Shown piece after piece: positions 20,015 to 60,411 of a stretch of 64,000 bases of DNA. Source of the DNA: Hydractinia symbiolongicarpus (lineage: Eukaryota; Cnidaria; Hydrozoa; Anthoathecata; Hydractiniidae); the NCBI RefSeq assembly GCF_029227915.1, contig NC_079878.1, forward strand, positions 19,778,001-19,842,000, in the 5' to 3' direction. Within the stretch, counting starts at the first letter, position 1. Every line of letters starts with the position of its first letter. The position numbers and the translations under genes are program-made. The notes below the pieces were generated by a model that saw nothing but the letters and a program-made list of their open reading frames with translations, searched no databases and had not been told where the DNA came from.

Positions 20015-20227
20015 AATTGGCGACGAGGATTCCAAGAACTCATGGAGAGGTATATTTCATAATTACAAAGCAATCTCGCGTGAAACAAGACGTGTGAATT
20101 TTCGAATCAAAACAACAAATTTTGTTGACTCTTACTGTGCGAAAGGAAACTTTGCTAGGCTGTCCTTTGTAATTTCAAGCGATAGTTATACTTGTGCGCG
20201 CGCTCTGAGCATTTCTGTGCAGCTAGC

Positions 20228-23011
20228 ATGTCCGTTTTGCAACTTCCAGCCATACCACCCTTTGACCCAAATGGAGAACCGACTTCAGTTGGTCAACGAT
20301 GGACGAAATGGCAGACCAGTCTTAAATACTACATACTAGCAAGTGGAGTTAGGGATGATGAAAGAAAGAGGGCAATTTTACTCCACATGATTGGACCTAA
20401 TTGCCAGGAAATATTTGAAACTTTCTCTGATCCTGGAACAACATTTGAAGAAGCCCTCCATAAATTTGATGAACATTTTTCAGTCAAAAAGAACATACCT
20501 TTCGAAAGGCATAAATTTCACCAAGCCTCACAACAAGTAGGGGAAAGTACGGATCAATTCATTACCCGTCTACGACAACTTTCCTTATATTGTGAATATG
20601 GATCAGAAACTGACAATGAAATCCGAGACATGGTCATAGCAAAAACATCGAATATTAAATTCCGCAAACGTTTACTTATGGAAACTGATTTGAATCTCCA
20701 GAAAACACAGGACCTTGGACGACTTTTTGAATCTGCAGAACACCAAAACAAAGAAATAGCTAATGGTAAACAAACAACAATAACTTCGAGAAAAAGAGGG
20801 ATTGTAATATATTTTACTAGGTATATATCGGATGCCGTGAAACATGACACTGAAGAAGAAAGCTCTGAACAAATCAACAAACTACATGGGCGTAGACCAC
20901 CTCATCGTAGCCATAGGAAACACAATGCACCACCACATCGGAACAACCCAACCAAATCATTCAACAAACCAGAATGTGGTCGCTGTGGTATGAAGAACCA
21001 CAAAAGTCATGAATGTCGGAGATCAAGAGATAAAACATGTAACAAATGTGGTATTAAAGGACATTTTGCAAAAATGTGCCGCACCAAAAATAAACAGCAA
21101 GTTCATCAAACCAACCATGAAAACTCTGATGACGAAGATGAGGATATCTACCTATACAAGATGAACACTACGAAGTCAAATAACTTCCCCGTTCTAGTAA
21201 ACAATAGCGAAATGACTGCTATCATTGATTCTGGAAGCACAACAAATATCATCGATTTTCGAACCTATAAACGCTTATTCAGCAACATCCAGCTTCAGAA
21301 ATCCAATGCCCGAATCTACCCATACAATGCTACTAAGAAGCTCCCAATCACTGGTACCTTCAAAGCTACAGTTGCAGCAAATCACCATAAAATACTAGCA
21401 AAATTCTACGTAATACCTGGTCAAGGAGGCAATTTACTTGGTCACAAAACAGCTGAGCAGCTAGATCTATTACGAATTGGACCAGCTACAACACCCATCA
21501 ACCATAGAACATTCCAGTTAGGTAGCAGAAGTCTGTCAAAAGGCATACCAGTATCAACAGAACAAGTCCTCAACAAAAACAACAAGGTATTCAAAGGAAT
21601 GGGAAAACTTAACAACTTCAAACAGAAACTCCATATTGATCCAGATGTCACCCCCATCCAGCAACCAACTAGGAGACTGCCGTTTCACACCAGAAAGAAA
21701 GTTGAAGCAGAGCTCGATAGACTGCTGAAATTAGATATCATTGAGCCAGTTAATGGACCAACTTCGTGGGTTTCACCAATTGTCGCAGTACCTAAGAAAA
21801 ATGGCAAAATTAGATTGTGTGTGGACATGCGCAGAGCAAACACTGCCATTATCAGAGAGAAGCATCCTATTCCAAAACTGGAAGAAATCCTACCATTATT
21901 AAATGGAGCCACTGTCTTCTCAAAAATTGACCTGCGAGAAGGCTACCATCAAATTGAGTTAGCCGAAGAAAGCAGAAACATTACTGCCTTCATTACCCAT
22001 AAAGGAATTTTCAGATACAAGCGTCTCATATATGGTATTTCAAGTGCCTTTGAACATTTTCAGAAAAATATTGAAATGGTAATTGCTGATTGTGAAGGGG
22101 CAAAGAACATCTCTGATGATATTTTTATCTGGGGAAAAACACAAGCTGAGCATGACCGCAATCTCGATAAGGTTCTTCGTAATCTTTCTGAGAATGGCCT
22201 GCGTGTCAACCCAGAAAAATGTGAGTTTAGCAAGAATAAAATTTTATTTAGTGGATATACTCTCACAACAGATGGCATATCTCCAGACCCTTCCAAAGTC
22301 ACTGCAGTCAACAAATTCAAAACACCAACAACATCGACAGAAGTCAGATCCTTTCTTGGTCTAGTAAATTATTGCAGTCAGTTCATCAAAGACTACAGTA
22401 CATTATCAGCTCCACTGAGGAAACTCACCAAGAAAAATACACCATTCATATGGACAGATGATCTTCCTGACGTTAGTCAACTTGTGAAAAGCAACAGTGA
22501 ATTGGATATAGAAGTAAACAAGAATGATGAAAAGCACAAACAGAAATCCAAGGAAAACACCGACCAGAACCGCAAGGCAAAAACTGTCACTTTTGAAGTC
22601 GGACAAAAGGTATTGTTGAAAAATCTTACCGACAACAAAAACAAACTTTCACCGCCCTGGTTAAAGGAAGTCTTCACCATCATTAAAGTATACAAACGAA
22701 GCATCATGGTTCGAAACAAGGAAGGAAAAACGTTTCTACGAGCAAACGGACACGCGAAACTGTATAGATCTGCGAAGGGTAAGCAATCGAGTGTTTCTAA
22801 CGCGCGAAACAGGGCAGACCCTTGTACCTGCTCAAGCAATGCGAATTTTGATGAGAACCAACAATCTAAACCGAATGATGGCCATAACAAAGAAGAAGAT
22901 CTATACGAAAAGAAAAACCACAAGAACGGTGCAAAAACCTACCCGAAACGACAAAGAAAAACTACAGAGCGTTACGTCATCATCAATCCGAAGCGCAAGA
23001 AGAAGACTTAG
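20228..23011 (+). CDS. Gypsy gag-protease-reverse transcriptase polyprotein with in-frame loss of RNase H/integrase
   Basis: The start chosen is ATG at 20228 (MSVLQLPAIPPFDPNGEP), giving 927 residues; the frame is open further upstream without an ATG. In order it encodes a gag region, two CCHC zinc knuckles (C-G-R-C-G-M-K-N-H-K-S-H-E-C and C-N-K-C-G-I-K-G-H-F-A-K-M-C), a protease with A-I-I-D-S-G-S-T, and a reverse transcriptase. The RT has P-K-K-N-G-K-I-R-L-C-V-D, F-S-K-I-D-L-R-E-G-Y-H and N-I-S-D-D-I-F-I, where ISDD replaces the usual YxDD, as seen in related elements. After T-P-F-I-W-T-D-D the frame jumps straight to a post-integrase tail (VGQKVLLKN, LSPPWLKEVF, RNKEGKTFLRANG). RNase H and integrase are therefore lost by an in-frame deletion. 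A 66-bp copy of the element's own 3' end lies in frame within gag (20775-20840). Confidence 0.9.
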   Translation: MSVLQLPAIPPFDPNGEPTSVGQRWTKWQTSLKYYILASGVRDDERKRAILLHMIGPNCQEIFETFSDPGTTFEEALHKFDEHFSVKKNIPFERHKFHQASQQVGESTDQFITRLRQLSLYCEYGSETDNEIRDMVIAKTSNIKFRKRLLMETDLNLQKTQDLGRLFESAEHQNKEIANGKQTTITSRKRGIVIYFTRYISDAVKHDTEEESSEQINKLHGRRPPHRSHRKHNAPPHRNNPTKSFNKPECGRCGMKNHKSHECRRSRDKTCNKCGIKGHFAKMCRTKNKQQVHQTNHENSDDEDEDIYLYKMNTTKSNNFPVLVNNSEMTAIIDSGSTTNIIDFRTYKRLFSNIQLQKSNARIYPYNATKKLPITGTFKATVAANHHKILAKFYVIPGQGGNLLGHKTAEQLDLLRIGPATTPINHRTFQLGSRSLSKGIPVSTEQVLNKNNKVFKGMGKLNNFKQKLHIDPDVTPIQQPTRRLPFHTRKKVEAELDRLLKLDIIEPVNGPTSWVSPIVAVPKKNGKIRLCVDMRRANTAIIREKHPIPKLEEILPLLNGATVFSKIDLREGYHQIELAEESRNITAFITHKGIFRYKRLIYGISSAFEHFQKNIEMVIADCEGAKNISDDIFIWGKTQAEHDRNLDKVLRNLSENGLRVNPEKCEFSKNKILFSGYTLTTDGISPDPSKVTAVNKFKTPTTSTEVRSFLGLVNYCSQFIKDYSTLSAPLRKLTKKNTPFIWTDDLPDVSQLVKSNSELDIEVNKNDEKHKQKSKENTDQNRKAKTVTFEVGQKVLLKNLTDNKNKLSPPWLKEVFTIIKVYKRSIMVRNKEGKTFLRANGHAKLYRSAKGKQSSVSNARNRADPCTCSSNANFDENQQSKPNDGHNKEEDLYEKKNHKNGAKTYPKRQRKTTERYVIINPKRKKKT

Positions 23012-25489: not shown

Positions 25490-28400
25490 ATTTTTTTTCA
25501 CTCTGGATCACTTCATTTACCAGTTACAGCCTGGTGCAATTGAGTTGAACAGGTTTATGCTAAGCAGATACAGGTAAGTACAATATTCCACATCGATGTA
25601 GCGATTGGTATTGCAGGAAATTGTCGAAAGGAATAACATTAATATTTTTTAAATAAAGAAACAAAAAAACATTATAGATTTCTATATGTAATATTTACTA
25701 ATGTTTTAATAACATGTTAAGGTAAACCAACACAATCAACGACATCATGTTTTATTTATAAAAAAAAACACATCCATAAGGAGGTATTTATCACTCGCAT
25801 TGTTTTTAAAAACCAAACTAAATATTGGGATTGTCAAAAAAGAAAGAGAGAGAAAGAATAATTGACTTCATGTGATATAGTTATTAAAAGATTAATACTT
25901 ATGCGTTGCAGCTTTTTTTAGGTAGCGGTCTGTTTTTTATATACCGGGCTCGGGCACAAAAAAGAAAATTGTTGTTGAAAAGGGTGCAGTGGTTCTTTCA
26001 CATTAAAAAGTAATGAAAAATGTGCAGTGTTGTAAAAAAGTGAATATTGAAATAAAGAATATACAGCCTTTTGAAAGATAATACGATTAACATGAAAGAA
26101 CATGAAATACTTTTGTCACGTCGATACTCAAAAAACTCAAGTGTAGGATTTCTATTTAGTAATAATTCACAAAAAGTGGTCAAAAAGAGGGCTTTTCATG
26201 CCCAACTTGAAATAAGATGAAACAAAACATTTGTAAAAAAAAAAACACATCATCATAGAAAAAACCTATTTCATGCCACTAGTTACAGCAACAAATTAAA
26301 GAACTAACTAAAACATTTAGTAAAAACAACCCAAAAAATTTGTGTGGTCGTTTTTGTTTCTCTTTAAGGTAATAATTTGTTTTAACCAGGTTCACCACCT
26401 ACGCCAACGGAATATGGGCAATAAATGCGGAAAACAAGACAAGTATGCCGTCGACAACTCAGTTGAGACAATAAAAGATTATTGCAGAGAACTACCATTC
26501 TTGAAATTCTTTGGTCAAACCAATATGGAAGGTGAGGTAAGTTGTTAGCCTTCGAAGTGTTGCATTTGATTAGTTACAAGAATGAAATAACAGAACAGTT
26601 GAAACGGGGTAGTATGGTTTGTGTATATATACTTGAGGTGGTAGCTTGCACTTTGTCGCGAGCAAAAATTAGATGCATCGATAACATTGTGTTCATTTAA
26701 ACTTCTAAAGATGTAAAGAGAAATCTTTGGATCGCAGAAAATTAATGTTTGACGTTGACGTGATTTTTTGACATGTTAATTTCTAATTCGCTTTGCTTAA
26801 ACGAAATTAACCTTATTTATTTTCCCATAGCCAGACCTGACAGAATAAAAACAAGTTGTTTGAGAAGAGGAGTCATCTTACCTTGTACTCAAAAGTAGGG
26901 GTTGTTGGTCGTATTACTTATCGTATTAAAACCTTCTATCTTAGAAACTAAGAATTTCATATCATATTAAAAACCTAATGCTTTTGAGACTGAAAGTAAG
27001 GAGTTGAGATCATCTTGCACGTATCCATCTTTGGCTGATTCCGATTTCAAACGCCCATGTCGTTTGAATAGCTTGTCTGCTACTCCGCCATTTGCAGCCG
27101 CTGTTGCACAACCGGATCTAAGGCTATGTAGGCCAGCTTTTTCCTTTTCTCAGAGTTTTATTCAGGTTAGATTTTTGTCACAGTAACTGCTCTAAAAATA
27201 AACTCCTCTGAACTCTCGTCCGTTAATTTTGTAAGTTCTAAGTACACTTTTAGATTTTTGACTGGACATAATTCGTTTCCCGTTTTGCTAATAAAAATCC
27301 AATTTCCTTCTCTGTACACGTCAGTTTTGGACTTTTCTATGAACAGTTTCATGTAAGATTCACAAATTGATATATCACAACGTCTAAGACCGGCTATCTC
27401 GGAAAACCTCAGACACCCTGCAGAGCCAATTAAGCATATTGCTAATGTCGTCATATTGTAAATGTTTTTTCTCTGCGAAAGTTTTGTGTGCAATAACTTT
27501 AAATGTTCAATTGTAATAGGTTGTTTTCTATTTTTCATGGTCGAAATGATTCGTTTAGAAGCCTCAAGCATTTCAGTAACAATAGGATTTTCACATGGGT
27601 TTTCGTACCCTCCGAGAAGATGAAAAAACTTTATAGCATAATAAGCACCTTCAAATTTTTGACAAAGACCAACCGGACTGAACTCCGCTTAATATAAACA
27701 ACGCAATAGTGGTTGATTTGGCTGGCGTAACTGACACTTTAAAAGACTTAAACCAGCGTTCCCAAAGGTAGAACGACGATTGATATTTCTTCAGGGTATT
27801 CTCCTCTCTACAAGTGCTCTTAATCAAATTCCCAGTGGACCAGTACTCATACTCTGTGGTCCCAGCGGACTCATTTTGCCCTGTGGCATTTTTAGCCGAA
27901 ATCCAAATTGACGGCTAGTATTGGCGAAACGAATTTTTCGCTGTAAAGAAATACTTTTTATTTTTTCCCTGTATTACACATACTTTTGGTTCACCTAAAA
28001 CCAAAAATAAGCTGAAGGCCAATAAGGTAACACAATTACACTTTCACATTTCGAAGTTTTCATGCTTTTTAACACTTTTCCTACAAGACTTGTTGGAGGT
28101 ACTATGTAGTTGTTTTCGCTTTTCCAAACATAATTTAGCGCATTTACTCCTTCTGTATTGGAACAATAAAATTTTGAATAAAACCGACATATCTTTTTGT
28201 TGCCGTTGTCAGAAAATCTGTCAACAGTAAAAGGACCCCACAGTTGGTTCAAATTGCTCTTCTTTTACTTGCCAGTCATCGTGATCTATCATACGACTAA
28301 GAGTGTCAGCAAATCTTAAATGTTCCCTTGGAACCCAGTTTACCGATATGTCAATTCTATTTCTCCTACATATATAAAATATATTTTCAGCAATAATTTG

Positions 28401-31400
28401 AAAATCATTTTTTCGGCTTCCCGCGTTTACAATTTTTGACCCTACAAAATTATCCGTTTTCCATAGAATTTTCTGTTTATTCAAAATGCTTTTTAAAGAC
28501 TCCAGTGAGTATTCTATAGTTTTTAATTCCCTCCAAATGGAGCTTTTTTCTTGTTCTTCTTGCATTAACTGTCTAAATGCAATTCCCTGTTGACTTTCAT
28601 GCATGGCATGAGCTGCCATCCCAGTTGAGCTAGCATCGGAATTTACAACAATCGTTTTTGTAGAATTATCGTACAGTTTGCTTATGTTATATTTTGACAG
28701 ATTATTTTTCCAAAAGAATAGTTCTTTAATCGCATGGGGGGGGGGGGTACTTAGCTATATTTAGCGTAGCATCCCAGGCGAATGCCTGCTCAATGATAGA
28801 ATATAACCTTCTTGTTTTTAGTTGTGTAATTGCCCCATTACAATTTTCATAGATATAATTTTACCACACAGCTGTGAAAGTTTTCTCGTGTAAAGGTAGG
28901 CATATATATAATATTGTTTATCAAGTTTTTCGCTGAAACCATTCTTTTTTCTGGTATGTACCACTCTATTTTTTCCAAATCTACCGAGACACCTAACCAT
29001 TTTAACTGCTGTTTAGGATCCCACACTGATTATCCTGCATTTTCTACAAAACCTGACAGTTGTAAAGATTTTTGAACAAATAGGACATCTTGTTTTGCTT
29101 TTTTATAATTCTTATCAATGCCAAAACCATTGTCAATAAATATCGCAATTTTGATCATAATTTCTCTCCAATATTTTATAAAAACTCTCATTGTTTTTGT
29201 AATAATAAACGGGGCCGGAGAAAGCCCGAACGGTAATACTGTAAAAACAAAGTATCTTTCCTTTCCTCCTATGACCCATGAAAACCCCAAGAATTTCTGA
29301 TATTCTTCTGAAATATCAATGTGATGGTAGCCCTGCTTTATATCGAACTTAAAACATGTACCCTTGTGCAGTTAGAAATTCCCTTAACATCTTCCAATCC
29401 TTAAACTTAACTTTTCTTTGTAAATGTGCTGGTTTACATACCTTAAATCAAAAATTAGTCTATTTTTTCCTCCTTTGATACTGACTGAAAGGGGATTTAC
29501 AACATTTGGTGCAGAAGACACTTCCTTAATTCGACCTGTATCAAGAAGCTCTTGTACCGCTTTATTGACGAATTCCGAATTTTTTTAGCGGATTGATTAT
29601 TAGAAAAAGTTTGTTTCTGTAGTGTCGTGAAAAAGGGAATAGTATAGCCTTCCTTGATAATTTTGGGAATAGTCGTATTACAGCCGATGGTTTGCCAATA
29701 TTTTAAGTTTTCCTTAAGCCTACCCTTAACTCTAGTTCCAGCCGTATTTCTACTTAGACAAAATTTGTACGTTGCCTCATCTCTTACATTGTTATCAAAA
29801 TTTAAACACTTATCTATTGTCTTTTCTTTAGACTTGCTTACGGCCGATAACGTTTGGGCAGTCTTTCGTCCAGTGGCCAGTCTTGCCACAACCGAAGCAC
29901 ATTGATCTTGCACTTTGGAATCTGTACGCTGATTGGGAAGAATATGGTGTGTTATGGTTGCCGATACTCCCAGACGGTTGAGATGGTTCTCTTGAAAATG
30001 CAAATCTTTGTGATTGGAAATGGTTTGGCATAGGTGGACAGGATATCAGGACATTAGTTGGGTGTGCATAGGGATGAAAAGTGGAGGGTAGAAGGACTTT
30101 GGCTTTACCTTTGCTTTCTTTTTTGCCAGTGCTTTTGACTCAGTCGATTTTATCCGTTTTTCGTCATCTGAATCGCTTGCTAATTCATCAGATAAGTACT
30201 CTTCTACAGTGACCCATCCTGCTGGTGATCTATCCGCCATTTTTATTAGCTTGTTTCACTTCGTGATTTCGAGTTTTATTCCTGCTAAACGTTTTGTTGA
30301 TCTTGATACAGAACCTTCTTTGATAAGGTCGATAACATCTTCCAAATCTTCCGCTAATTTTTGGTTAAATTGGAATTGGATTTGGTTACCTTGTCTCGAC
30401 GATTCTGGTTTAGCTGAAACCTTCATGTTTTTCGGTGTACTCTGTTGTTGCAGTTTTGTTTCGAATCCTATTTCTGTTCGATAAACCTTTTGTCCAGGTA
30501 GCTTCTGATTAGGTCAAATTGTTCCATTTCGTTTAGTGTTTGCGGGGCATATTGGCTGTTAATAACAGGTTCTTCCATGTTATTATTAGAAGTTTCGTCC
30601 ATTTTTAATGCAATTGCGTGACCTTGAATACTTGAAAGCTAATCGACGTGTGATTGAATTTTCTGAAAATCCACCCTTTTGCTTAAAATCACGTGACAAC
30701 GTGATACCGAGGTTTTTACTGTAGGCCTGTTCTACACCGAAAATAAATTCTAATATTTTAAGTCATTGATGATGGAATGACAATTTTTTTGGTTATTTAA
30801 AAACGTTGAAATAACATGGGCAATTGTTCTTATTCAGAAAAATGATGTCAGCTCGACTAAAAACGTGTCGAATTTGGGATCATATTTATCCTTATTGGAC
30901 GAATTCTTGAGAGGGTTAAAGAACGTTGAAGATTTTACAGGAGAAGAGGAAAAGTTTGTTCAACTTTTAAGCTCGGTTTCAACCAAAAGAAAAAAAGAAG
31001 GTGAAACCACTAAAACGTGTTTCAAACGATTGAAAATTCAAAGCAAAAGATTTTCCACAATATACAGGAAACGTGGAGGTACGTGGTTACACTTGGTTTT
31101 TTGTTAAGTCTTTGATTCTTTTACGAAACTTTAAATTTAAAACGTATATACGGCCTGTTTTTTAATCAACACGTGGTCAGCGTCTCGAAACTTGAGACGC
31201 GATTTGTGGCTCTTAAATCAAGACCTCGACGGTTCATATTTGGTACTGTTAGATAGCTTAATTCATCCTCTTTCTGCAATATGTCCATCACTTTTATTGA
31301 CATCTTAGTCCCTAGGAGTTATGGCGGTCCAACTGTTGGGTAGCTAGTTTCTGCCAAATTTTGTGTGAATATTTGAGGGACCCATTCTAAACAACCTCAA

Positions 31401-35682: not shown

Positions 35683-36024
35683 TTGCAGGATTACACGAAA
35701 ATAATATTTGAGTTTAATGTTTTGAAAAGGCCTTCTTCGTTTGTTCTGGCTATTAAGACTTACGGAGACGTCTCCTCAGTATGTTATAAAAGTGAAAAAG
35801 TTCGATGCGCCAAGTCAAATTGTTTTAAAACTTCTGGGAAGTCTATGAAGATAAGTCGTGTACTTATGTTTTATTTTATCAGTTTTAAAAGGCATTACCA
35901 CTTGCACAAGAACTTCTTTGCTAGCTTCAATATACAACTTTTAGTGTTAACAAATTTATCTATTTTACAAGTAACGAGAGTATCAAGACTGGATCAATGT
36001 CACCAGCAGCCATATGGGATATAG
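35683..36024 (+). CDS. Possible exon of unknown gene
   Basis: After an acceptor-like TTTGCAG at about 35689 the frame is open to 36024. It begins DYTKIIFEFNVLKRPSSFVL, with cysteines in SVCYKSEKVRCAKSNCF. No in-frame ATG opens it, so it would be an internal or terminal exon of an unrecognised gene. Weak evidence. Confidence 0.2.
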   Translation: MQDYTKIIFEFNVLKRPSSFVLAIKTYGDVSSVCYKSEKVRCAKSNCFKTSGKSMKISRVLMFYFISFKRHYHLHKNFFASFNIQLLVLTNLSILQVTRVSRLDQCHQQPYGI

Positions 36025-36325
36025 TTTTGATCAACGGCAGCCCTTTTTTCGACTTTTAATGTCATTATCTCCGATGACAATCTACTCAAAAGTGACCGAA
36101 TACTGTTGATTTAAAAACCACAACTATCTAAATCAAACAGTTCTGTAAATGACCACCCCCCCCCCTTGGGACTTATTTAACAAAATAAATTTTACGTGAA
36201 GCTGTTTACACGAAAACGAGACTTGCTTTAGAGTGTGATTTCTTTTTTTGGGTCACATTTGTCATACATTTTTAGTTTCCACCGAAACTATCTAATAAAA
36301 ATAAAATAAATAATCGAAACCACTT

Positions 36326-36472
36326 TTAATCCACATAAATCTGCTTCCCATCATCTCTATTTCCTTCAACAAGCATTTCCCATTGATCAGCGTCTGCAGT
36401 TTCCTCACTAGTAAGAGCGAATGGGTTTCTCTCTTTGTTGTTGAATACCTCCACTTGCATGACAAATTTCAT
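36326..36472 (-). CDS. Short acidic ORF, unknown (48 aa)
   Basis: ATG at 36472 opens MKFVMQVEVFNNKERNPFAL, continuing TSEETADADQWEMLVEGNRD and D-G-K-Q-I-Y-V-D before TAA. The composition looks coding and the C-terminus is acidic. It lies just downstream of the inverted gene fragment at 36551-36768, on the same strand. It may be a short gene, a last exon or chance. Confidence 0.25.
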   Translation of the reverse strand: MKFVMQVEVFNNKERNPFALTSEETADADQWEMLVEGNRDDGKQIYVD

Positions 36473-36550
36473 TTGGTTTAATGGATGGCATCACCATTAA
36501 GATTAGTTAATAATATGTATGCTTTGAATGACTTGCCAATAGTTTGTAAT

Positions 36551-36768
36551 TTTTTTTTTCAAATTAAGAAGGTCAGCCTATATCGATAAGAAAACAAAGC
36601 ATGTATTTCAAATTCCAAGACAATTCAAACATTTTGAAAACATTTTAAACAACTTACAAACGTCATTTGTAATCGATTTATATCAGCAATTGTTGTTTGA
36701 GTTATCACAGCTAGTTTATTGACAATCACTGCCTCACCACAACGTTGGCTAATCGTTGTGCGAACCAA
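36551..36768 (-). pseudogene. Inverted partial copy of the cytokine-like gene (exon 2, intron 2, start of exon 3)
   Basis: The minus strand matches about 39200-39415 of the plus strand at roughly 90-95% by eye, through exon 2 (QRCGEAVIVNKLAVITQTTI and on), the GTAAGT donor, intron 2, the acceptor and the start of exon 3. The 5' break falls inside the signal-peptide exon and exon 3 decays after about 10 codons. Intron sequence is copied, so this is a DNA-level inverted duplication and not a processed copy. Confidence 0.85.
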
Positions 36769-36772
36769 CAGA

Positions 36773-38910
36773 ACAAAAAAAAATGTAAAAAATTATAAGC
36801 CTAAAGTCAAAGTTGAGTTTAATGATTAACGTCGGCCGTCAGAGTATTCTTTTTTAAGTAATTGCACAGCAGTTATGGAATGATATAGCTATATAAATCC
36901 TTTTAAAACAAAAACAAGTGACTTTTGTAATCCGCATGGCAACACCTGTCATAATCTTCATTTTTTCCTTATTGGGAAATTTTCATAGCAGGTAGTTAAA
37001 TTAAAATTTCACAAAAATAAAGTAAAAGATTTTGGTTGCGATACAGTATAATACAGTTCGCTGATCACTGTTACGTGATAAACATCGAGAGAAAAAAGCC
37101 CGAGTAGAAGATAACGATTACAATATTTAAATTATTTTAGGTGACAGCTAATTTCATTGAATTTAAATTGACATACTTCCCATGTAACAACTCACTTGCT
37201 GATGTACACAGTCTTCACATTTCTGAAGTAATACACCCCCATCCCTCACGTAGACTGAAGCCTGTCAACCAATTGTTTCTCCCTTGCTTTATTTATGCCT
37301 CCTGTAAGCATTGTAAGTGTCAGATCTTCTCAGTTTTTTTGTTTTTGATTTTTCAGCTCCTAAAAAGTCATTAATGGTTTTGCAAGTTACTGAAATGATG
37401 GCATAACAGAACGAAAGACTGCTCACATTGCATTTTTTTTCATATAAACGATTGCTGAAGATAATCGTTTGATATACAATACATAGAAGGACAAAATGAT
37501 AAACTTCCTGAACGTACGTATAAATCTTGAAAACTCTTGAGAGCGGTACAAAAAGCGGTACAAAATTATTTTTTTTTAACATTTTAATTAATTTGTGATG
37601 TAAAGTAACAAAGAGATAAAAACTCGTTGAGCATTTTTGTTACATTCTTCGTACTGTTTTTTTACGGATTCTTAGAAATGGAAATGTAGAAGCACAACTT
37701 TCAATAAAAGTTAACTTGAAATTGTTTCTAAAATAAAGTCGTTTTCTGATATTTTTTTTTGTTCTAACGCACGTGGTTTTCAGCAAATAATTTCCACTAA
37801 AATTTTAGTATTCTATTTATAAAACATCTCTTTTGTCACTTGTATTTTCGTTGTATATTTAGCCATAGTAATGAGATAATTTTTTTCTTTTATAACAACA
37901 AAATTTATAATGCTCTTAACTAAATGATATTCTTAGAATGTTATACCAAAATCCTTGGCCAGACCAGTGCTGGAAATGAATAAACGGAAGTTAATTCCTA
38001 AAAAAATTTCATATCATATGAGATAGATAAAATTCAAGGAAAGAAATATAACACCAGGAAGGAAATAAGTCTATTTGGAACCTTTATTTTTAATTAATTA
38101 TAAGGAGTATGTATTTAAATAGAATTCGTCTCTTTTTGCCTTTGACTTCTAAAATTATTTGCCCCGTTCCCTGACTTACTAGGTTCCGGGTCAGTCCCAC
38201 TTCTTAAACCGTTTTAAAATATTTCCTTTTCGTATTTATTTTTTTATATTGTACAAATGAGAACAAGAATTGAAAGACGTCCAATTTTGTTACTTGTCTC
38301 TAAGTTAAAAATTTTCCCCGTTGAAATTTAAACCAGAACTAAAAGCTCTCGCGTTGAAAATAATATTAATAACTAGTCGTACGCCCGTACTAAACACACA
38401 CCCTTTCTCCACTTGCGGTTTCTACTTTACAAACAGCAGGTGTTTAATATAGACTGTTAGCCTGTACTTACTTCGGACATCAGAATTTCGCCATTTTAAA
38501 TATTGCTCTTTCGTGTATCTTTAGCACGAAATATTCCTCGTGACAGACAGACAACCGACATTATTACAGAAATGGGTGACAGAATGACCTGACAGAAACA
38601 AGTAAATCTGACAAGAAGAACTTTTAAAGCAAAATGTATTAATGATAATTGAGAAGAATAAAAAACTGCGGGTCGGATTTGTATAGCTAATGAAAAATCA
38701 ATGATGCAGCTAGCCGGCAGTAGCGTTTTCTACTACGTCACTGGGAAATTATTTGAATATATGACAACTTCGCTGTTTGACGAAAATTAAATAATTATGT
38801 CAAAAGTGTGTCTGCAATATTTCCATGAAACTGATTGCCTTTGAAAGCAAACAAAAGCAGCCTAAATTTTAAAGGGGATATTTCTCTGAAGCCCTATTAC
38901 GTCACAGTAA
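36773..38910. other. Spacer between the inverted fragment and the cytokine-like gene
   Basis: AT-rich. A plus-strand ORF at 37141-37374 follows an acceptor-like ATTTTAG but has no recognised similarity. No other feature can be supported. Confidence 0.3.
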
Positions 38911-39010: not shown

Positions 39011-40237
39011 ATGAAGATAGTAATTGGTATGCCATGCTTTATTATTTTAAAGGTGCTTCGTCATCGGGATTACTTCGGCACATGTTGATGGATTTATCCG
39101 CTGTGAAAGTTACCAGGAAAACCTTCTTGGAAGGGATTTATTTCTTTGGTTGCAAGAATTAATCATATGATTTTTATAATTTTAGGTATGCTTATTGCGG
39201 TGTTGGTTCGCACAACAATTAGTCAACGTTGTGGTGAGGCAGTGATTGTCAATAAACTAGCTGTGATAACTCAAACAACAATTGCTGATATAAATCGATT
39301 CCAAATGACATTTGTAAGTCTTTTAAAATGTTTTCACTTGTTTGGATTGTCTCGGAATTTGAAATACATGCTTTGTTTTCTTATCGATTTAGGCTAACCT
39401 TCTCAATTCGAAAAAACAAAAAAATTGCAATATTCGTCTGTGCAATTACTACAGTAAAGCACGACTATGGGCAGGAAAGTTTAATCCTTTTCGAAAGAGT
39501 GTAAGTACTTTCAAATTAAAAACATTTCATTGATAATAGGAAAATATTTTTTTTAAAATTAAAAGTATCAATGTTTTTGTATCTAGATGGTAGAGGTGTT
39601 ATCCCTCAGCGTCTATGCGTTCAAACAGTACTTAATCACTCTTGAGCAGATTATCAACAAAGATAAGAGCATTAAAGGACGAAAGAATGTTCTGTCTCTG
39701 ATCAAAGCAATACGCAATCGAGTTGCTGGTGACATCAAGGAATACTCTGCCACAATACAGGTAGGTTACTGTAGTTGTCGCAACCACAAAACTTCTCTGA
39801 GCGTAACATATGGTAGTAACCATTACCATTGTTTGTGCTTTGTTTAAACAATGTGTTGAGTCATTGGATTTTTTGTCGAACTGTGGTAAAATTCGTAAGC
39901 TTGTATATCAATATCAGCAATGTTATCAGCACAAAGCGCCTTCAATTTCCATCTGTTTTCCTAGAAATTGGAAACTGCACCATGTGATCATCCAAAGTCA
40001 AATCTTAAATTGACCTCTGTCTTAGTACCAACCTATCCTGATCCTAAACCACCAAGTTGTATTTGCAAGTCAATCAGCAAAGATCATCAGCTGTATAATA
40101 TCGTCAGCGACCTTTCATACCTGTATTTGACGTACTATACGTACTACAGATGCTTGTTTTCGCGGATAACACGGCCCGATAGCAAGAACTTTCTCTGTCC
40201 GTTTTCGGATAAGGTCAATCGATTCATTAAGAATTAA
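39011..40237 (+). CDS. Secreted helical-bundle protein, candidate class I (IL-6/G-CSF-like) cytokine
   Basis: Five exons: 39011-39026, 39186-39313, 39393-39500, 39587-39760 and 39965-40237. They total 699 nt and encode 232 residues, all with GT-AG borders and no internal stop. The signal peptide MKIVIGMLIAVLVRTTIS is split by intron 1. The mature chain starts QRCGEAVIVNKL. Four helix-prone stretches are visible: about 22-52 (VIVNKLAVITQTTIADINRF), 85-112 (MVEVLSLSVYAFKQYLITLE), 118-142 (NVLSLIKAIRNRVAGDIKEY) and 182-208 (QLYNIVSDLSYLYLTYYTYY). About nine cysteines lie mainly between helices and at the ends. The intron phases are 1, 0, 0, 0. As I recall it, human IL6 has 19, 191, 114 and 147 coding bases in exons 1-4, giving the same phases and a first intron inside the signal peptide. 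Sequence identity to any cytokine is not evident, so identity rests on architecture. Other secreted helical proteins remain possible. A partial inverted copy lies 2.4 kb upstream. Confidence 0.85.
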
Positions 40238-42159: not shown

Positions 42160-43118
42160 AACTTCAAAGTTGGACTGTTCTCAGAATGTTGCTATAACAC
42201 CAAAGTATGAGGTTCATGTTCAAAGCATGTTCAAAAATTTTTATGAATATATTAATTCTAGGCATCAGAATATTAAATTCACGTTTGAAGAAGAATGTGA
42301 TAAGGTTTTGCCATTCTTGGACGTTTGCGTCATGCGTGAAGGTGATTCTTTTGTCACCAACGTATATAGGAAACCAATATTTAGTGGAGTTTATACTAAC
42401 TTTTTTTTTTTTGGAATATAAACACGGCTTGATTTTTTCTTTACTTTATCGTTGTTACCATCTGTGTTCAGATCTTAATAAATTTCATGTAGAAATATCT
42501 CAGTTGAAGACTATTCTTGGAAGGAATGGATACCCTTCAAAGGTTTTTGAATTCTGTCTCAGAATTTTCAAGAGCAGAAATTACGAACCGAAGGAACAAG
42601 TGTCCCTTGCTCCTAAGAAAGAGTTAGTCCTTGTTTTACCTTTTTTAGGAAAGATTACCTTACAAATTAGAACACGTTTGCACCGTTTGTTTAAGCAGAA
42701 ACTGGCACATTGTAATGTTAAACTTATATTTTTTTCTAAAAGGAGGCTACGTAGCTGCTTTGCCTTTAAGGACAGAATACCCGAATCGTTACGCTCCGGC
42801 CTCGTTTACTGTTTTAAGTGTAGTGGCTGCAACGCCACTTATTATGGCAAAACAAAACGCCATTTTAAAGTCCGTATGTCTGAGCATTTAGGTATTTCTG
42901 CACTTACAGGTAAACGCGTTAAACTTGGTCCCCAGGCCAGTGCCGTTCTCGAACATTTAATGTTTTGTAATTACTCTCCAGCATCGTTTCACAACTTCTC
43001 AGTACTTGCGGAAGAGTCTAAAGATTTTAAACTTACTCTGATGGAGAGCTTATTAATTGAGCGTGACCGTCCCATTTTAAATAACACGGTAAAATCTATG
43101 CCTTTAGAATTATTATAA
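42160..43118 (+). pseudogene. Penelope-like retroelement, 3' part with GIY-YIG endonuclease, frameshifted
   Basis: The first block ends the reverse transcriptase: NFYEYINSRHQNIKFTFEEE, LPFLDVCVMREG and VTNVYRKPIFSGVYT. A T-run at about 42402-42412 shifts the frame. The second block continues to 43118 and ends in a GIY-YIG-type domain: GLVYCFKCSGCNATYYGKTK, F-K-V-R-M-S-E-H and MESLLIERDRPILN. The RT-plus-GIY-YIG pairing defines Penelope-like elements. The 5' end is missing. Confidence 0.85.
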
Positions 43119-44416: not shown

Positions 44417-46381
44417 ATGAAGAAGACTAATCAAGATGTTGTAGGTGAGAAGTGTATACGTAATGATGAAGGTGTTTTGGCTAGCACAGAGGAGGAGAAA
44501 AGGGTAGCTTGGAAGAATCATTATCAGAGGTTGCTTAACACTGAGTTTGATTGGGACGAGGATAATTTGTCTGATGATGATGTTGTAGAAGGGCCAGCTA
44601 TGCAGATCAAGACAGAACGGGTAGTGGAGAATATTAGGAAATTAAAGATTGGCAAGGCTGCAGGAGTATCAGGTATTGTTGCAGAGATGGTAAAAGCATC
44701 TGGGTATATTGGGGTTGAGCTTATTACATGTCTTGCCAACCAGATTATAAAGGATGGTGCTATTCCGAGTGAGTGGCAGTCGAGTGTAACAGTGAATTGT
44801 TTAAGGGCAAGGGTGATGCATTAGAAAGGGGTAACTATAGAGGTTGATCAAGTAATGAAAGTTATTGAAAGAGTGATTGATAAGTTACTTAGAGAAAGAA
44901 TAGATAAGATGCAATTTGGTTTTTTTCCTGGGCGTGGTACTACAGATGCAATTTTTTTAATCAGACAGCTTCAGGAAAAGTATTTAGGAAAGAGAAAGAA
45001 TCTCCATTTTGCCTTTGTAGATTTAGAGAAAGCTTTTGATAGATTGCCACGTAAAGTTATTTGGTGGGCTATGAGAAAATTAGGTGTGGATGAGTGGCTA
45101 GTTACGATAGTACAGTCTATGTACAGCAATGCTAGAAGTCGTGTCAGGGTTAACGATTCACTTAGTGATGAATTTAGTGTAAATGTTGGTGTACATCAGG
45201 GTTCTGTACTTAGTCCTTTGTTGTTTGTTCTAGTCTTAGAAGCGCTGTCGATGGAGTTCAGAACAGGTTGTCCATGGGAGTTATTGTATGTAGATGATTT
45301 GGTTCTCATAGCAGAGTCGATGGAAGAATTAGTTAAAAAGTTTGAGAAGTGGAAGAAACGACTAGAAGAGAAAGGGCTAAAGGTAAACACAGCAAAGTCT
45401 AAAGTCATGATTAGTAGCATTGCAGCCAAGTGTGACCTTGTAGTTGGAAAGTGGCCTTGTGGAGTTTGCAGGAAAGGGGTTGGTAGTAACTCAATTTTTT
45501 GTCAGACTTGCAAGCATTGGGTACATAAGAAGTGCAGTAGTATTAGTGGAAGGTTAAGAGCTGACATTCAGTTTGTATGCAAGCGTTGCAAAGGTGAGAT
45601 TATAGAGAATGAAGTATTTCCAGCTTTAATGATGTACAACAGTGGCTGGTTAGAGATAGTTGAGAACTTCTGTTACTTAGGTGATATGTTGGGCAGTGAA
45701 GGGGGTGTTGGAAGAAGTGTTACTTGCAGGATAGGTTCTGCTTGGAAAAAGTTCAGAGAGTTACTTCCTTTGTTGACTAGCAGAGTCCTGTCAATTGAGG
45801 TAAAAGGTAGGTTGTATGAGGTCTGTGTAAGAAATGTTATGTTGTACGGTAGTGAGACATGGGCAGTGAAGCAGGAAGATCTTGACCGTTTAGAAAGGAA
45901 TGATATGAGAATGGTTAGGTGGATGTGTAACGCCAGTCTGAGAGACAGAAAGAGTTCAGATGAGCTAAGAAGCAGGCTAAGTCTCCGTAGAATTAAAGAT
46001 GTTATCCAGATAAGAAGATTGAATTGGCTGGGGCACTTGGAAAGAATGGAGGAGGATAATTGGGTAAGAAAGTGTAGAGACTTGATAGTTCCTGGGGCAA
46101 AGCCCAGAGGCAGACCGAGAAAGACTTGGCAGGAGGTTATAAGGACAGACTTGATACAGAGGAAGTTGAGTTTAGATCTAACACAGTCTAGATCAGATTG
46201 GAAGAGGGTCATTAATATACCCCGTCCAACCCATGCTCTCGATAGTCCAATAATATACAAAAATAATTACTTATTAGATTTCAAAAAATGTGAAACAACT
46301 GAGAAGAGCAAAGTGAAAAAACTTAGTTCAAAATATTTGATTTTTTTTCGAAATTATGACCTAATTATGCTTGTTGTCTGA
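44417..46381 (+). pseudogene. Non-LTR retrotransposon (LINE) ORF with PHD-type finger, 5'-truncated and frameshifted
   Basis: The first block (44417-44824) ends in a frame break near 44795. A short stop-containing gap follows, and the second block (44855-46381, 508 codons) is open. RT motifs are FGFFPGRGTTDAIFLIRQLQ, F-V-D-L-E-K-A-F-D, GVHQGSVLSPLLFVLVLEAL and L-L-Y-V-D-D-L-V-L. Following the RT is a zinc finger of PHD type, C-x2-C...C-x2-C...H...C...C-x2-C (CGVCRKGVG, FCQTCKHWVHKKC, FVCKRCKGE). The C-terminal region carries WLGHLERMEEDNWVRK and RGRPRKTW, typical of LINE tails. The endonuclease region is absent. Confidence 0.85.
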
Positions 46382-49729: not shown

Positions 49730-52462
49730 AATCCGTAAAAGAAATAATTTAGTTGCAACAGTTAAGAAACTTTTTGCAGGTACGATCAAGAAATCATATT
49801 TAGACTATACTGGCGAAGGAGCAGATTAAGATATGCTGCATGCTTCCTTAGACACAGTAAAGAATAAACTAGCAAAGGTAATAATTTTAGATGATGAGCT
49901 TTAATTTTTAATTGATGATATGACGCAAGCACAAAGTCACACTGAAAAGTCATTCAACGATCATATATACATTAGGAGGAGTGTTAAGGTGCTTGACAGG
50001 TTTTCAGAAAAGAAAGGAAAAGATCTCAATGACGAAAGTACTTGTAAGTGTTGCCTCATCCTCTTTTTCTGGTAGTGTTAAGTTACTTAAAATGGAAATT
50101 CATAAATTTTTGGTGAACCCTACTGAGTGGAACACTTTCATTGATTCGTTTAAAGCTGCAGCTCACATAAATGAGAGTCTTTCTGATATAGAAAGGATGA
50201 ATTATTTTATAAATTTGCTTAAGGGTGATGCTGCACATACCCTAACAGGCCTAAAATTATCAAATCTAAACAACAAAATTGCCAACTTGCTTAAGGAGCG
50301 TTTTGGTGATGTATCGATAAAGTTAAGCCTCTTCGTCTCCTGTATGACCAGGTTGAGGCACATTCGTTCTTTAAACAATTTGGAATCGAAACAAAGAACT
50401 TTGGACTTATGTTGGTACCGGTGTTATTAGCAAAATTACCAAATGAATTCAAGTTAATAATTTTACGACAATTTGGGAAAGATAAATTGGATATTGATAA
50501 ATTCATTGAGGCTTACAAAAATGAACTTGAAGTACGTGAAAGAATAAATTAGACAGGGAATGGAAGTGGAGTCGACCGATCGTTTTCCATTAAAGTAATG
50601 TTTGTTGACCAGGGGAGAGATATGAATCTCTCCAAAGTTTTCAGTGAAGGGTAAAGATGGCAATCAGAGCATTTACATCAATGCATTGGTGAATGACTTT
50701 TGTCATCCTGTTGAGGATCAAAATATTCGTTTAGACACTTCAGTTTATGATCATTTACAAAATTTGGATCTAGCTGATGACAATCCCCAAGATTTACCTT
50801 CAGAAATTGATATAATAATAGGTGATGATTATTACTGGGAGTGTTTCAATAGCTCGATAATCAAAGGCAAAACAAGTGGTCCAATTGCTACATCTTCTAA
50901 ATTGGGGTACATTTTAAGTGGTCCAATCACCACTAAAGGAAGTGGTTCAAGTTCAGTAAATTTTGTTGATAAACATGTTTTTCGTGTACAATGTGACTTT
51001 AATGTTGAAAACAAAAAGCTTCAAAACCCTGTAAAATCCCTTTGGCAAACAGAGGCTGCTGAAATAGATTTCGCTAATTCACTAGTGATTGAAAATTTTC
51101 AAGAAAATATTGACTTTGTTAACTCAAAATATTAAGTCAGGTTGCCATTCAAAGGAGTCTCATGAACCATTGGGAGATCATTATGCTGTAAGTTTGAAAC
51201 GTTTGAAGGGATTGATGGGAAAGTTTGCTAAGGACAGTGAGTTATTAGAAGAGTACGACAGGATCATTAATGAACGGGTAAATTTAGGGATTGCGGAGAA
51301 AGCTCCAGAAAGCTACCAGTAATTAGGGAAAATAGTGCTACTACAAAGTTACGCATAGTGCTTGATGGATCAGCTACTGATAGTGGTGGTCCCACATTGA
51401 ATGTATAAATCCAGGGTCATCATTAACTCCCTCACTCTATGGTGTTATATTACGACTTCATGCTGGAAATGTTGCAGTTGTGGCTGATATAGAAAAGGCA
51501 TTTTTGCAAATTAGTCTGAAACCTGAAGATAGGAACTATGTGAGATTTTTATGGTTCAAGGATATTGATAATTTAGATTTTAAGAATTTTGAAAACAATG
51601 AGATTGTGGAGTATTGTTTACGCCGTGTGCTTTTTCAGATCTCCTCCTCCCCATTTTTACTGATTGGAACTTTGATCCATTATGTATTAAGGCACCAACT
51701 GAATTTATTAAGAAACTGTTATTGTCTCTCCATGTTGATGACTTAAATAGTACTGCAGATTCTGCAACAGAAGGTTTTGATTTTAAACACTAAGCAAAAA
51801 ATTGTCTTATAAACGGCGGATTTTATTTAAGAATGTTCAAAACTAACTCGAATAAACTTCGAAAAATGATTATGGAATTTTTTTTAAAAGATGTTGTGAC
51901 TGATTCAAAGCAAGACAAAATTCTTGGAATCAATTCAGTAACCGTTTGATACTTGACTTTTCTAAGGGTCAACAAAGAAATGTAATGTAACAAATTGCTT
52001 CAATCTATGATCCAATCGATATCATTAATCCTATTATTGTCACAATGAAAATTTTGTTTCAGTACATGTGTTTGTCTAAAGTAGATTGGGATGAGCCTCT
52101 TAAGAAAGACCTTTGTCACGGGTGAAAAAATATTTTTGTCACCTGTGATGACAGTAAACATAAAACAGTAAACATTGATCGCCTTTATTGTTATAAGTTT
52201 CCTGTAGTCAATTGAAATGCATGCCTTTTCTAATGCTTCTAAACGGGCCTATACGGTACCTGTATATATCTGACGTTTCAGGACGTTTCTAACAATATAA
52301 CAAAAAAAATAGTTACTGTTAAGTCTTGAGTGAATTCTACGCGTAATTACACCATACCTAGATTGGAGTTGCAAGGAGCCCTGTTGATGTTATATAATTT
52401 AAAAGATGTTTATGATATTTCTAAAGTAGTAGCTTGGACTGACTCTACAGTTGATCAAATCG
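49730..52462 (+). pseudogene. BEL/Pao retrotransposon relic, part 1 (gag, protease/linker, RT, start of RNase H)
   Basis: Gag block at about 49981-50430: KMEIHKFLVNPTEWNTFIDS, then ERMNYFINLLKGDAAHTLTG and LLKERFGD. The region before RT (50644-51135) has IDIIIGDDYYWECFNSSIIK and SKLGYILSGP, a hallmark of BEL/Pao. RT (about 51200-51750) has EYDRIINERVNLGIAEKAPE and VADIEKAFLQISLKPEDRNY with FLWFKD. RNase H starts at about 52330-52462 with IPRLELQGALLMLYNLKDVY and VVAWTDSTV. It is full of stops and frameshifts and stops abruptly near 52462; the sequence resumes at 56885. Confidence 0.8.
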
Positions 52463-58219: not shown

Positions 58220-59827
58220 CTATTTGAAATAATCTTTGATTGAGGATTGTTTTCTATTTTGAAGCTGAAGTTCCTCAATCTTTTTCGTAATGGTTGACAA
58301 CATTTCTTGGCATGTATCATCAAAAATAGTAGATCGCTTAATTTTATCAAGCATAGTGATTAGCTCGGTGAAACCAAGCATTTCTTCTTCAACCACGTCT
58401 TCACTCTCATCATCATCCTCGGAAATCTCTTCGACCTGACATGCCATCTCTGGATTTTCAATTGCGTTAATGCTAGCTTCTCGGATTTGATGTCGCCAAT
58501 TTATTTCTAATTCGTTAATTCTTGGCTCCGAAGCTGGAACATCGGCGTCAAAATCGATGTATTCTGCAGCAGACATATCTTCAGTTAATTCCTTCACCAG
58601 AGCTTCAAATTCCAAGTCATCTTCTTGATCTTCCATCAATTCACTTTCTCCTTGAACTACGCCACATTTCTCGAAACAATTTTTGATGGTCAAGTTGGGT
58701 ACTTCTTTCCACGCATCTTGAACCCATTGAATAGCCATAAGTATGTCTACGCTCTTGATAATTTCAGTTGCAGATTTATTCTCCTGGATCCTTGCAAGCA
58801 CGTATTTGACCAGTCTTTTTCTGTACTTCACCTTGAAGTTTTGGATGATCCCCGCATCGAGTGGTTGAAGCCTTGAAGTTGTGTTCTTCGGTAAGAAAAT
58901 GATTTTGATTTGTGAAAACTGGCCTATCATTGACTCCGGATGACAGGTGGCGTTGTCCAGAAAAAGAATAACTTTTCTGTCCTCAAATAAAAGTTTTCTG
59001 TTAAAACGTGCCAGTACAGTTTCCATTACTTGAGATGTCATCCAAGATTTAGGATTTGAAAAGTAGTGAACGTTAGCTGGACGCGATGGATCTTTCAATT
59101 TTTTAAAACAACGCGGGACTTTACTCTTCCAGATAACAACAGGCTGGTCGATCTTTTCCCCAGCTGCATTTACAAAAAAAGCGACAGTTAATCTAAGCTT
59201 TGACTTTTTCCCACCTTTTGCTTGTTTTCCTTTTTCCACTAACCCTTTGGCCGGTAGAGCTTTAAAAAAACAGCCAGAATCGTCCATGTTCCAAATATTT
59301 TCTAGTGAATAACCTTCAACCAATTCTTTGATCCTCTCCATCCAGGAAGTAACCGTTTCTGTAGAAACGTCACCAGCTTCACCAACAATACGACGTTCTT
59401 TGACGGAATATGTTGTTTTCCAACGATCCAACCAACCGTCAGAGGCGGAGAAATTATCAAAATCGCTGTTCTGAAGTTTTTCCTTAATTTCCAACGCCTC
59501 CTCTTTAAGCATTACACCATTAGGGTAGATGTTAGAAGCGCAACATCTTTTGTACCATTCGAATAAGATCTCATTTATCTTGTGATACTTGCCATGGCGG
59601 TTACGTTTTTTTGTTTTCTCACGAAAAATTTCATGTTGTTCACGAATTTTCTTTTCGTCTCTTAAAATATTTGCTGCGGCTGTCTTTCCAATCTTGTAAA
59701 TGTCTGCTAGTTTTCTACATCCAAGTTCTGGATTTTTTTTGGCGAAATCCAAAGACTTGATCTTATCATCTAATGATAAAGTTTTCTTCGCTAGTTTACC
59801 AGCAAGCTGCTGCTTCGACATTGCCAT
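58220..59827 (-). CDS. Tigger/pogo-type transposase, full length, with C-terminal PIP box
   Basis: 535 residues with no stop, from ATG at 59827. An N-terminal CENP-B-type helix-turn-helix lies at about 15-60 (SLDDKIKSLDFAKKNPELGC). A second HTH is at about 78-150 (KINEILFEWYKRCCASNIYP, then DGWLDRWKTTYSVKERRIVG). The DDE_1 catalytic domain spans about 175-385. Its carboxylates appear as D182 in N-M-D-D-S-G, D291 in F-L-D-N-A-T-C-H and D324 in L-Q-P-L-D-A-G-I, a DD32D spacing expected of pogo elements. An acidic tail follows, with coiled-coil-like ends. The last residues, Q527-S-S-I-K-D-Y-F534, fit the PCNA-binding consensus Q-x-x-I-x-x-aromatic-aromatic. All catalytic features are present, so it may be active. 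Cut-and-paste transposition at TA is the expected role. Confidence 0.95.
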   Translation of the reverse strand: MAMSKQQLAGKLAKKTLSLDDKIKSLDFAKKNPELGCRKLADIYKIGKTAAANILRDEKKIREQHEIFREKTKKRNRHGKYHKINEILFEWYKRCCASNIYPNGVMLKEEALEIKEKLQNSDFDNFSASDGWLDRWKTTYSVKERRIVGEAGDVSTETVTSWMERIKELVEGYSLENIWNMDDSGCFFKALPAKGLVEKGKQAKGGKKSKLRLTVAFFVNAAGEKIDQPVVIWKSKVPRCFKKLKDPSRPANVHYFSNPKSWMTSQVMETVLARFNRKLLFEDRKVILFLDNATCHPESMIGQFSQIKIIFLPKNTTSRLQPLDAGIIQNFKVKYRKRLVKYVLARIQENKSATEIIKSVDILMAIQWVQDAWKEVPNLTIKNCFEKCGVVQGESELMEDQEDDLEFEALVKELTEDMSAAEYIDFDADVPASEPRINELEINWRHQIREASINAIENPEMACQVEEISEDDDESEDVVEEEMLGFTELITMLDKIKRSTIFDDTCQEMLSTITKKIEELQLQNRKQSSIKDYFK

Positions 59828-59832
59828 GTTGA

Positions 59833-60411
59833 ATGTGCATTAGAAATTCAAAATTCGAAATTCTTTCCAGTTTAAAATTTTACGCTGCAATGTCTTCACG
59901 ATTCGAATGCTATTTTAAAGTTGAAGAAGCTGAAGAGAACACAGATATGTCGAACGTTCAACTAAATGAGATACTTCTCAAAAACATTGACCAACAGATT
60001 GAGATTATCCTTATAAAACAGAAAGAATATCGCTTCGACTCGTTTATCCGTGGATACCTTGCTTACATGGACATATGGAGCCCAAAAGTCGGAGAAGAGA
60101 ATTTTTGTTTAAAAGCGGAAGAAGATAACGAACATGACAAGTTTGCTGTAGCTGTTACAGATGACGATAAAGTAGTTGGGCACGTCCCTAAAAACCTTAG
60201 CAAACTATTCAACAAATTCATGTCGCTTCCTAACTGTACCATCGGATGTAAAGTGACTGGGAAGCGAGTGAACCGTGGTGCTGGCTACGGACTAGAAATT
60301 CCTGCCCAGTACCAATTAATTGGTGTTGAAAAGGCAGTTGAGTGGGCCGAGAAAAATATAAGGAAAGTGTTGGACTCGGTAAATAACAAAACTCAAAGAT
60401 GTACTAAGTAA
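59833..60411 (+). CDS. HIRAN-like domain protein carried by the Tigger element
   Basis: Open from ATG 59833 (192 aa). The likelier start is ATG 59890 (MSSRFECYFKVEEAEENTDM, 173 aa), because a splice-acceptor-like TTCTTTCCAG lies just before it. The HIRAN-like region is about 65-160 of the longer form: FDSFIRGYLAYMDIWSPKVG, E-E-N-F-C-L-K-A-E-E-D-N-E-H-D-K-F-A-V-A-V, VVGHVPKNLSKLFNKF, CKVTGKRVNRGAGYGLEIP. HIRAN domains, as in HLTF, hold 3' ends of single-stranded DNA. It lies head to head with the transposase, five bases apart from the first ATG or 62 from the second, within the same terminal inverted repeats. A role in transposition or repair is inference. Confidence 0.8.
   Translation: MCIRNSKFEILSSLKFYAAMSSRFECYFKVEEAEENTDMSNVQLNEILLKNIDQQIEIILIKQKEYRFDSFIRGYLAYMDIWSPKVGEENFCLKAEEDNEHDKFAVAVTDDDKVVGHVPKNLSKLFNKFMSLPNCTIGCKVTGKRVNRGAGYGLEIPAQYQLIGVEKAVEWAEKNIRKVLDSVNNKTQRCTK

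Follow-up and report, generated by a model that had tools for sequence, protein, structure and literature searches.

Gene layouts of helical cytokines

The coding exon lengths of IL-6, EPO and GH1 give intron phases of 1-0-0-0, and in the human IL-6, EPO and GH genes introns fall where helix A ends, where B begins and where C ends. The IL-6/G-CSF family also carries a PROSITE-type signature, C-x9-C-x6-GL-x2-[FY]-x3-L. A review describes an up-up-down-down topology with long loops (PMC7378365), and carp G-CSF genes reportedly have the same five-exon, four-intron organisation as their counterparts in man and mouse (PMC6389648). For the class II genes IFNL2 and IFNL3, a very short first exon, a phase-1 intron and phase 0 thereafter have been described (PMC2654155); a phase-1 first intron is therefore no mark of class I alone. 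Gene features can nevertheless guide discovery: zebrafish interferon-upsilon was reportedly found via its exon number, intron phase, leader and helices, with all phases zero (PMC8863823).

On the receptor side, the occurrence of CRLF3 reportedly begins with placozoans and cnidarians (PMC12409108). A BLAST-based survey from 2026 traces IL-6R as far as molluscs and contradicts itself on JAK in coelenterates. The same survey places IL-6 family cytokines in vertebrates only, BLAST being blind to very divergent ligands (PMC13203501).

A gene modelled with five exons in Hydractinia symbiolongicarpus

Within the window (the whole 64,000-nucleotide stretch of DNA analysed here), positions 39011-40237 of the plus strand can be read as five exons with GT-AG borders at 4/4 introns, phases 1-0-0-0 and a product of 232 residues plus a stop. 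This gene model, put forward by a sequence-only reading, is present in the DNA as described:

39011-39026, plus strand: putative exon 1, optional; start of the signal peptide, ending in phase 1
39167-39187, plus strand: alternative in-frame start (ATG 39167), which would make intron 1 unnecessary
39186-39313, plus strand: exon 2; remainder of the signal peptide, C21 and putative helix A
39393-39500, plus strand: exon 3; last part of putative helix A, then the A-B loop with C60 and C65
39587-39760, plus strand: exon 4; two putative helices, B and C, with a short turn between them; equal to residues 1-58 of LOC130640673
39965-40237, plus strand: exon 5; a loop rich in Pro and Cys (C149, C174, C176), then putative helix D with C205, followed by C220 and the stop; also equal to LOC130640673

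In exons 4 and 5 the sequence coincides fully with LOC130640673, an uncharacterized NCBI entry of this hydrozoan. This identity shows that the gene exists, and its exon 4-5 join agrees with that of NCBI. The two are the same, real gene, so far unnamed, and the cnidarian origin earlier assigned to it is correct. The NCBI model encodes 148 residues, begins at the first Met of exon 4 and is without exons 1-3. The latter exons are thus putative, with support from the sequence of this locus.

The upstream exons and the choice of start

Upstream exons were assessed with 150 dinucleotide shuffles of the 687 bases 5′ of exon 4, the last 20 bases being kept. A spliced extension into exon 4 of at least 70 residues with a hydrophobic start is found in the real sequence and in 0/150 shuffles; of the chains in the real sequence the script prints just the longest, and this starts at ATG 39167 and is not the chain that includes exon 1.

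Three start codons are available. Besides the ATG of exon 1, an in-frame ATG at 39167 makes the first intron dispensable by reading directly into exon 2 (MIFIILGMLIAV...); the third is at 39188. Left unspliced, ATG 39011 opens a reading frame of 25 residues only. The ATG of exon 1 is the likelier start, because it is the most upstream of the three with a good context (GAAAGAATGAA). The phase-1 first intron depends on the model. That this intron splits the signal peptide holds in the five-exon model, but ATG 39167 bypasses it and makes it optional. As for the proposed signal peptide, a signal-like hydrophobic leader, judged by eye, follows from each of the starts at 39011, 39167 and 39188.

A decayed inverted copy

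Further evidence on the upstream exons comes from a second feature of the locus, defined by alignment and partly by eye:

35997-36961, minus strand: decayed inverted partial copy, head to head with the gene

Positions 36770-36550 of this copy run from exon 2 (minus its 5′ end) through intron 2 into the beginning of exon 3, and are 92.8% identical to the gene. Across exon 2, 116/127 aligned bases match, the copy being without the 5′ end and acceptor; within the conserved tract exon 2 differs at four sites, three of them silent (by eye). Exon 3 is represented by its acceptor and first ~28 bases only. The exon 4 remnant (36107-35997) shows 72% identity; its frame is broken and contains a stop. 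An exon-1-like ATG followed by GT can be seen by eye at 36961 (11/16 identical in MAFFT), while the exon-2 acceptor, the remainder of exon 3 and exon 5 are unrecognisable in the MAFFT alignment of the copy. The copy retains the exon-2 donor, the intron-2 acceptor and an open frame over most of exon 2. The comparison fits a coding exon 2 and a real exon 2-3 join, but falls short of proof.

The tract of ~220 bp that is 92.8% identical has sharp edges, and the exon-4 remnant is just 72% identical. Taken together, this looks like the product of gene conversion between the inverted copies.

Were the NCBI model correct, the product would be a 148-residue protein without a signal peptide, either intracellular or functionless, and exons 1-3 would be relics or parts of another transcript. 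The exact start of the NCBI protein at exon 4 agrees with such an arrangement. We nevertheless consider it very doubtful, as no shuffle produced a comparable upstream chain, the inverted copy retains splice sites and most of the open frame around exon 2, and the cysteines of exon 5 would fit an extracellular protein.

Family and homologue searches

Eight cysteines, earlier described as several, lie at positions 21, 60, 65, 149, 174, 176, 205 and 220 of the 232-residue product. All eight belong to the mature part, which is highly basic (pI 9.8; 35 K+R versus 14 D+E; net charge ~+21) and contains no N-glycosylation sequon.

A Pfam profile search of the protein returned 0 families at E up to 10, in a setting where 6/6 human control proteins matched their own families, and the NCBIfam and PDB-sequence searches likewise gave no match at E up to 10. 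Homologue searches, which depend on shared exact words so that distant relatives could escape, found nothing beyond the gene's own entry, LOC130640673. The IL-6/G-CSF signature, with its two cysteines, is absent from the protein and was found in the IL-6 and G-CSF controls; the EPO/TPO and GH signatures are also absent, and the EPO and GH controls do contain them. Neither the Pfam profile nor the PROSITE signature therefore backs the assignment to IL-6/G-CSF that was first proposed.

Pairwise scores against human IL-6, G-CSF, GH, LIF and leptin were non-significant in both local and global alignment. Only EPO reached a nominal level (local alignment, z 2.75 and p 0.024; global alignment, z 3.45 and p 0.008; both uncorrected), and correction for the 12 tests brings this to p ~0.1. 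The local EPO alignment runs in order from the A-B loop through helix C. Reversed IL-6 and LIF outscored the real proteins in both alignment modes. A likeness to helix B of IL-6 (SVYAFKQYL / GLLEFEVYL) requires a loosened motif that also occurs in 8% of shuffles; its FxxxL core lies 12 residues past intron 3, compared with 14 in IL-6.

Predicted structure and intron placement

If the protein is a helical bundle, helix A would run from exon 2 into exon 3, B and C would lie in exon 4 and D in exon 5. AlphaFold2, run without an alignment on exons 4-5, places helices at residues 2-25, 32-61, 96-127 and 140-147 (mean pLDDT 53), the exon 5 helix at 96-127, putative helix D, having block pLDDT values of 39-57. 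The isolated exon-2 peptide is drawn as a single helix over residues 2-41 of 42 (pLDDT 83), a weak result in that isolated peptides are readily drawn helical and this one includes the leader. Four amphipathic helical stretches had been proposed. The folded pieces are indeed predicted to be helical, although by simple propensities strand is preferred to helix in the windows that correspond to A, B and D. Amphipathicity, by contrast, is not borne out, as the hydrophobic moments of the four putative helices are all non-significant against their own shuffles (p = 0.18, 0.15, 0.29 and 0.36). Foldseek with the weak exon 4-5 model (pLDDT 53) gave 0 matches at E 0.001, and one prolactin row at E 7.9; structure comparison of this model was altogether uninformative.

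The putative connections comprise ~27-31 residues between A and B (end of A by eye), 6 between B and C, and a Pro/Cys stretch of 34 between C and D. In the five-exon model, introns 2, 3 and 4 fall within 6 residues of the putative A end, B start and C end. The probability that three random introns would lie so close to these borders is 0.0013, with the A and B borders set by eye and the tolerance chosen post hoc. The 1-0-0-0 pattern, intron 1 being model-dependent, would point to long-chain class I cytokines generally, because it is common to IL-6, EPO and GH. The IL-6/G-CSF-like layout and phases noted earlier are thus present in the model, but belong equally to EPO and GH and include an optional first intron.

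With IL-6/G-CSF/MGF (PF00489, PF16647) the gene shares a start of the secretion type, the five coding exons and 1-0-0-0 phases of the model, the location of putative helices B and C within exon 4 and FxxxL in helix B, but its protein is without a profile match or the full two-cysteine signature. EPO/TPO (PF00758) and GH (PF00103) have the phases and the intron-to-helix placement in common with it, and EPO the nominal pairwise score; here too, profile match and signatures are missing from the protein. The Unpaired ligands of Domeless in Drosophila would be comparable as secreted invertebrate ligands, but the whole Pfam scan of the protein yielded 0 families.

A possible class I cytokine

As a guess, the cytokine idea is fair and testable, plausible but unproven. 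It sees in the protein a diverged member of the long-chain class I four-helix cytokines, with up-up-down-down topology, that would dimerise a cytokine receptor, perhaps a cnidarian one of the CRLF3 or gp130/Domeless type, and signal through JAK-STAT. The predicted connections, long between A and B and between C and D and short between B and C, would permit this topology, and the intron-to-helix placement, with its post hoc borders, the phases, the position of the FxxxL core and the nominal, in-order EPO alignment all argue in the same direction. So do the reported presence in cnidarians of CRLF3 (PMC12409108), a receptor whose endogenous ligands had not been identified as of 2021 according to one account (PMC8063046), and the precedent of interferon-upsilon (PMC8863823). 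Against it stand the empty Pfam, NCBIfam and PDB searches, the three absent signatures, the non-significance of five of six human cytokines together with the corrected EPO value, and the higher scores of reversed IL-6 and LIF. The frequency of the loosened helix-B motif in shuffles, the lack of significant amphipathicity, the Foldseek result from a partial model and the optional phase-1 intron weigh on the same side, as does the restriction of IL-6 family cytokines to vertebrates in the BLAST-based survey (PMC13203501). On balance we judge a class I cytokine unlikely. The fuller proposition, that this is the first non-bilaterian long-chain class I helical cytokine, with the ancestral five-exon layout of IL-6, EPO and GH, and a candidate CRLF3 ligand, is less likely again.

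A probable secreted orphan protein

We favour, as probable but far from assured, a secreted, basic, disulfide-stapled and mainly helical orphan protein outside described families that acts as a soluble effector or short-range ligand. This reading is preferred because of the exon chain and its 0/150 shuffles, the LOC130640673 entry, the basic eight-cysteine composition, the predicted helices, the absence of a family and the lack of any homologue beyond that entry in searches for shared exact words. The product would be a strongly basic, mainly alpha-helical protein of ~214 mature residues, presumably secreted and held together by disulfides. We speculate that it acts extracellularly, whether as a soluble effector or as a ligand of short range, and that it may bind acidic partners such as matrix, glycans, or microbial or cell surfaces. 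Counting against such an orphan are the NCBI model, which omits exons 1-3, the propensities, with strand preferred over much of putative helices A, B and D, and the helix and intron order resembling that of class I, which on this view would be coincidence.

One special case of the orphan protein, covered by the same estimate, would be a cationic secreted host-defence protein of the antimicrobial type in hydrozoans. Its pI of 9.8, net charge of ~+21, eight cysteines and signal-like start are what such a protein might have. However, no Pfam family matches, the protein exceeds the length of typical antimicrobial peptides, and some cytokines are also basic, making this special case improbable.

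Should the product be no more than an orphan secreted protein, it would join many others. Should it be a class I cytokine, the ligand side of JAK-STAT signalling would predate bilaterians, and a test ligand for CRLF3 would become available.

Surrounding DNA

A Pfam scan of the window's ORFs shows that the gene is embedded in transposon-rich DNA. Retroelement-like sequences comprise 20186-23011 (plus strand; RVT_1 and a sub-threshold PNMA match), 28221-28754 (minus strand; a sub-threshold RNase H-like piece) and 49924-50430 (plus strand; DUF1759). A 306-residue ORF at 42198-43118 (plus strand) has no Pfam match at E 0.001 and by eye resembles the GIY-YIG-type tail of a Penelope-like element. 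The reverse transcriptase ORF at 44825-46381 (plus strand; RVT_1) has a PHD finger match just 3′ of its RT core. At 58220-59839 on the minus strand, a 539-residue stop-to-stop ORF encodes a Tc5/pogo-type transposase (DDE_1, HTH_Tnp_Tc5), and a divergent HIRAN-domain ORF at 59833-60411 (plus strand) overlaps it by 7 bases.
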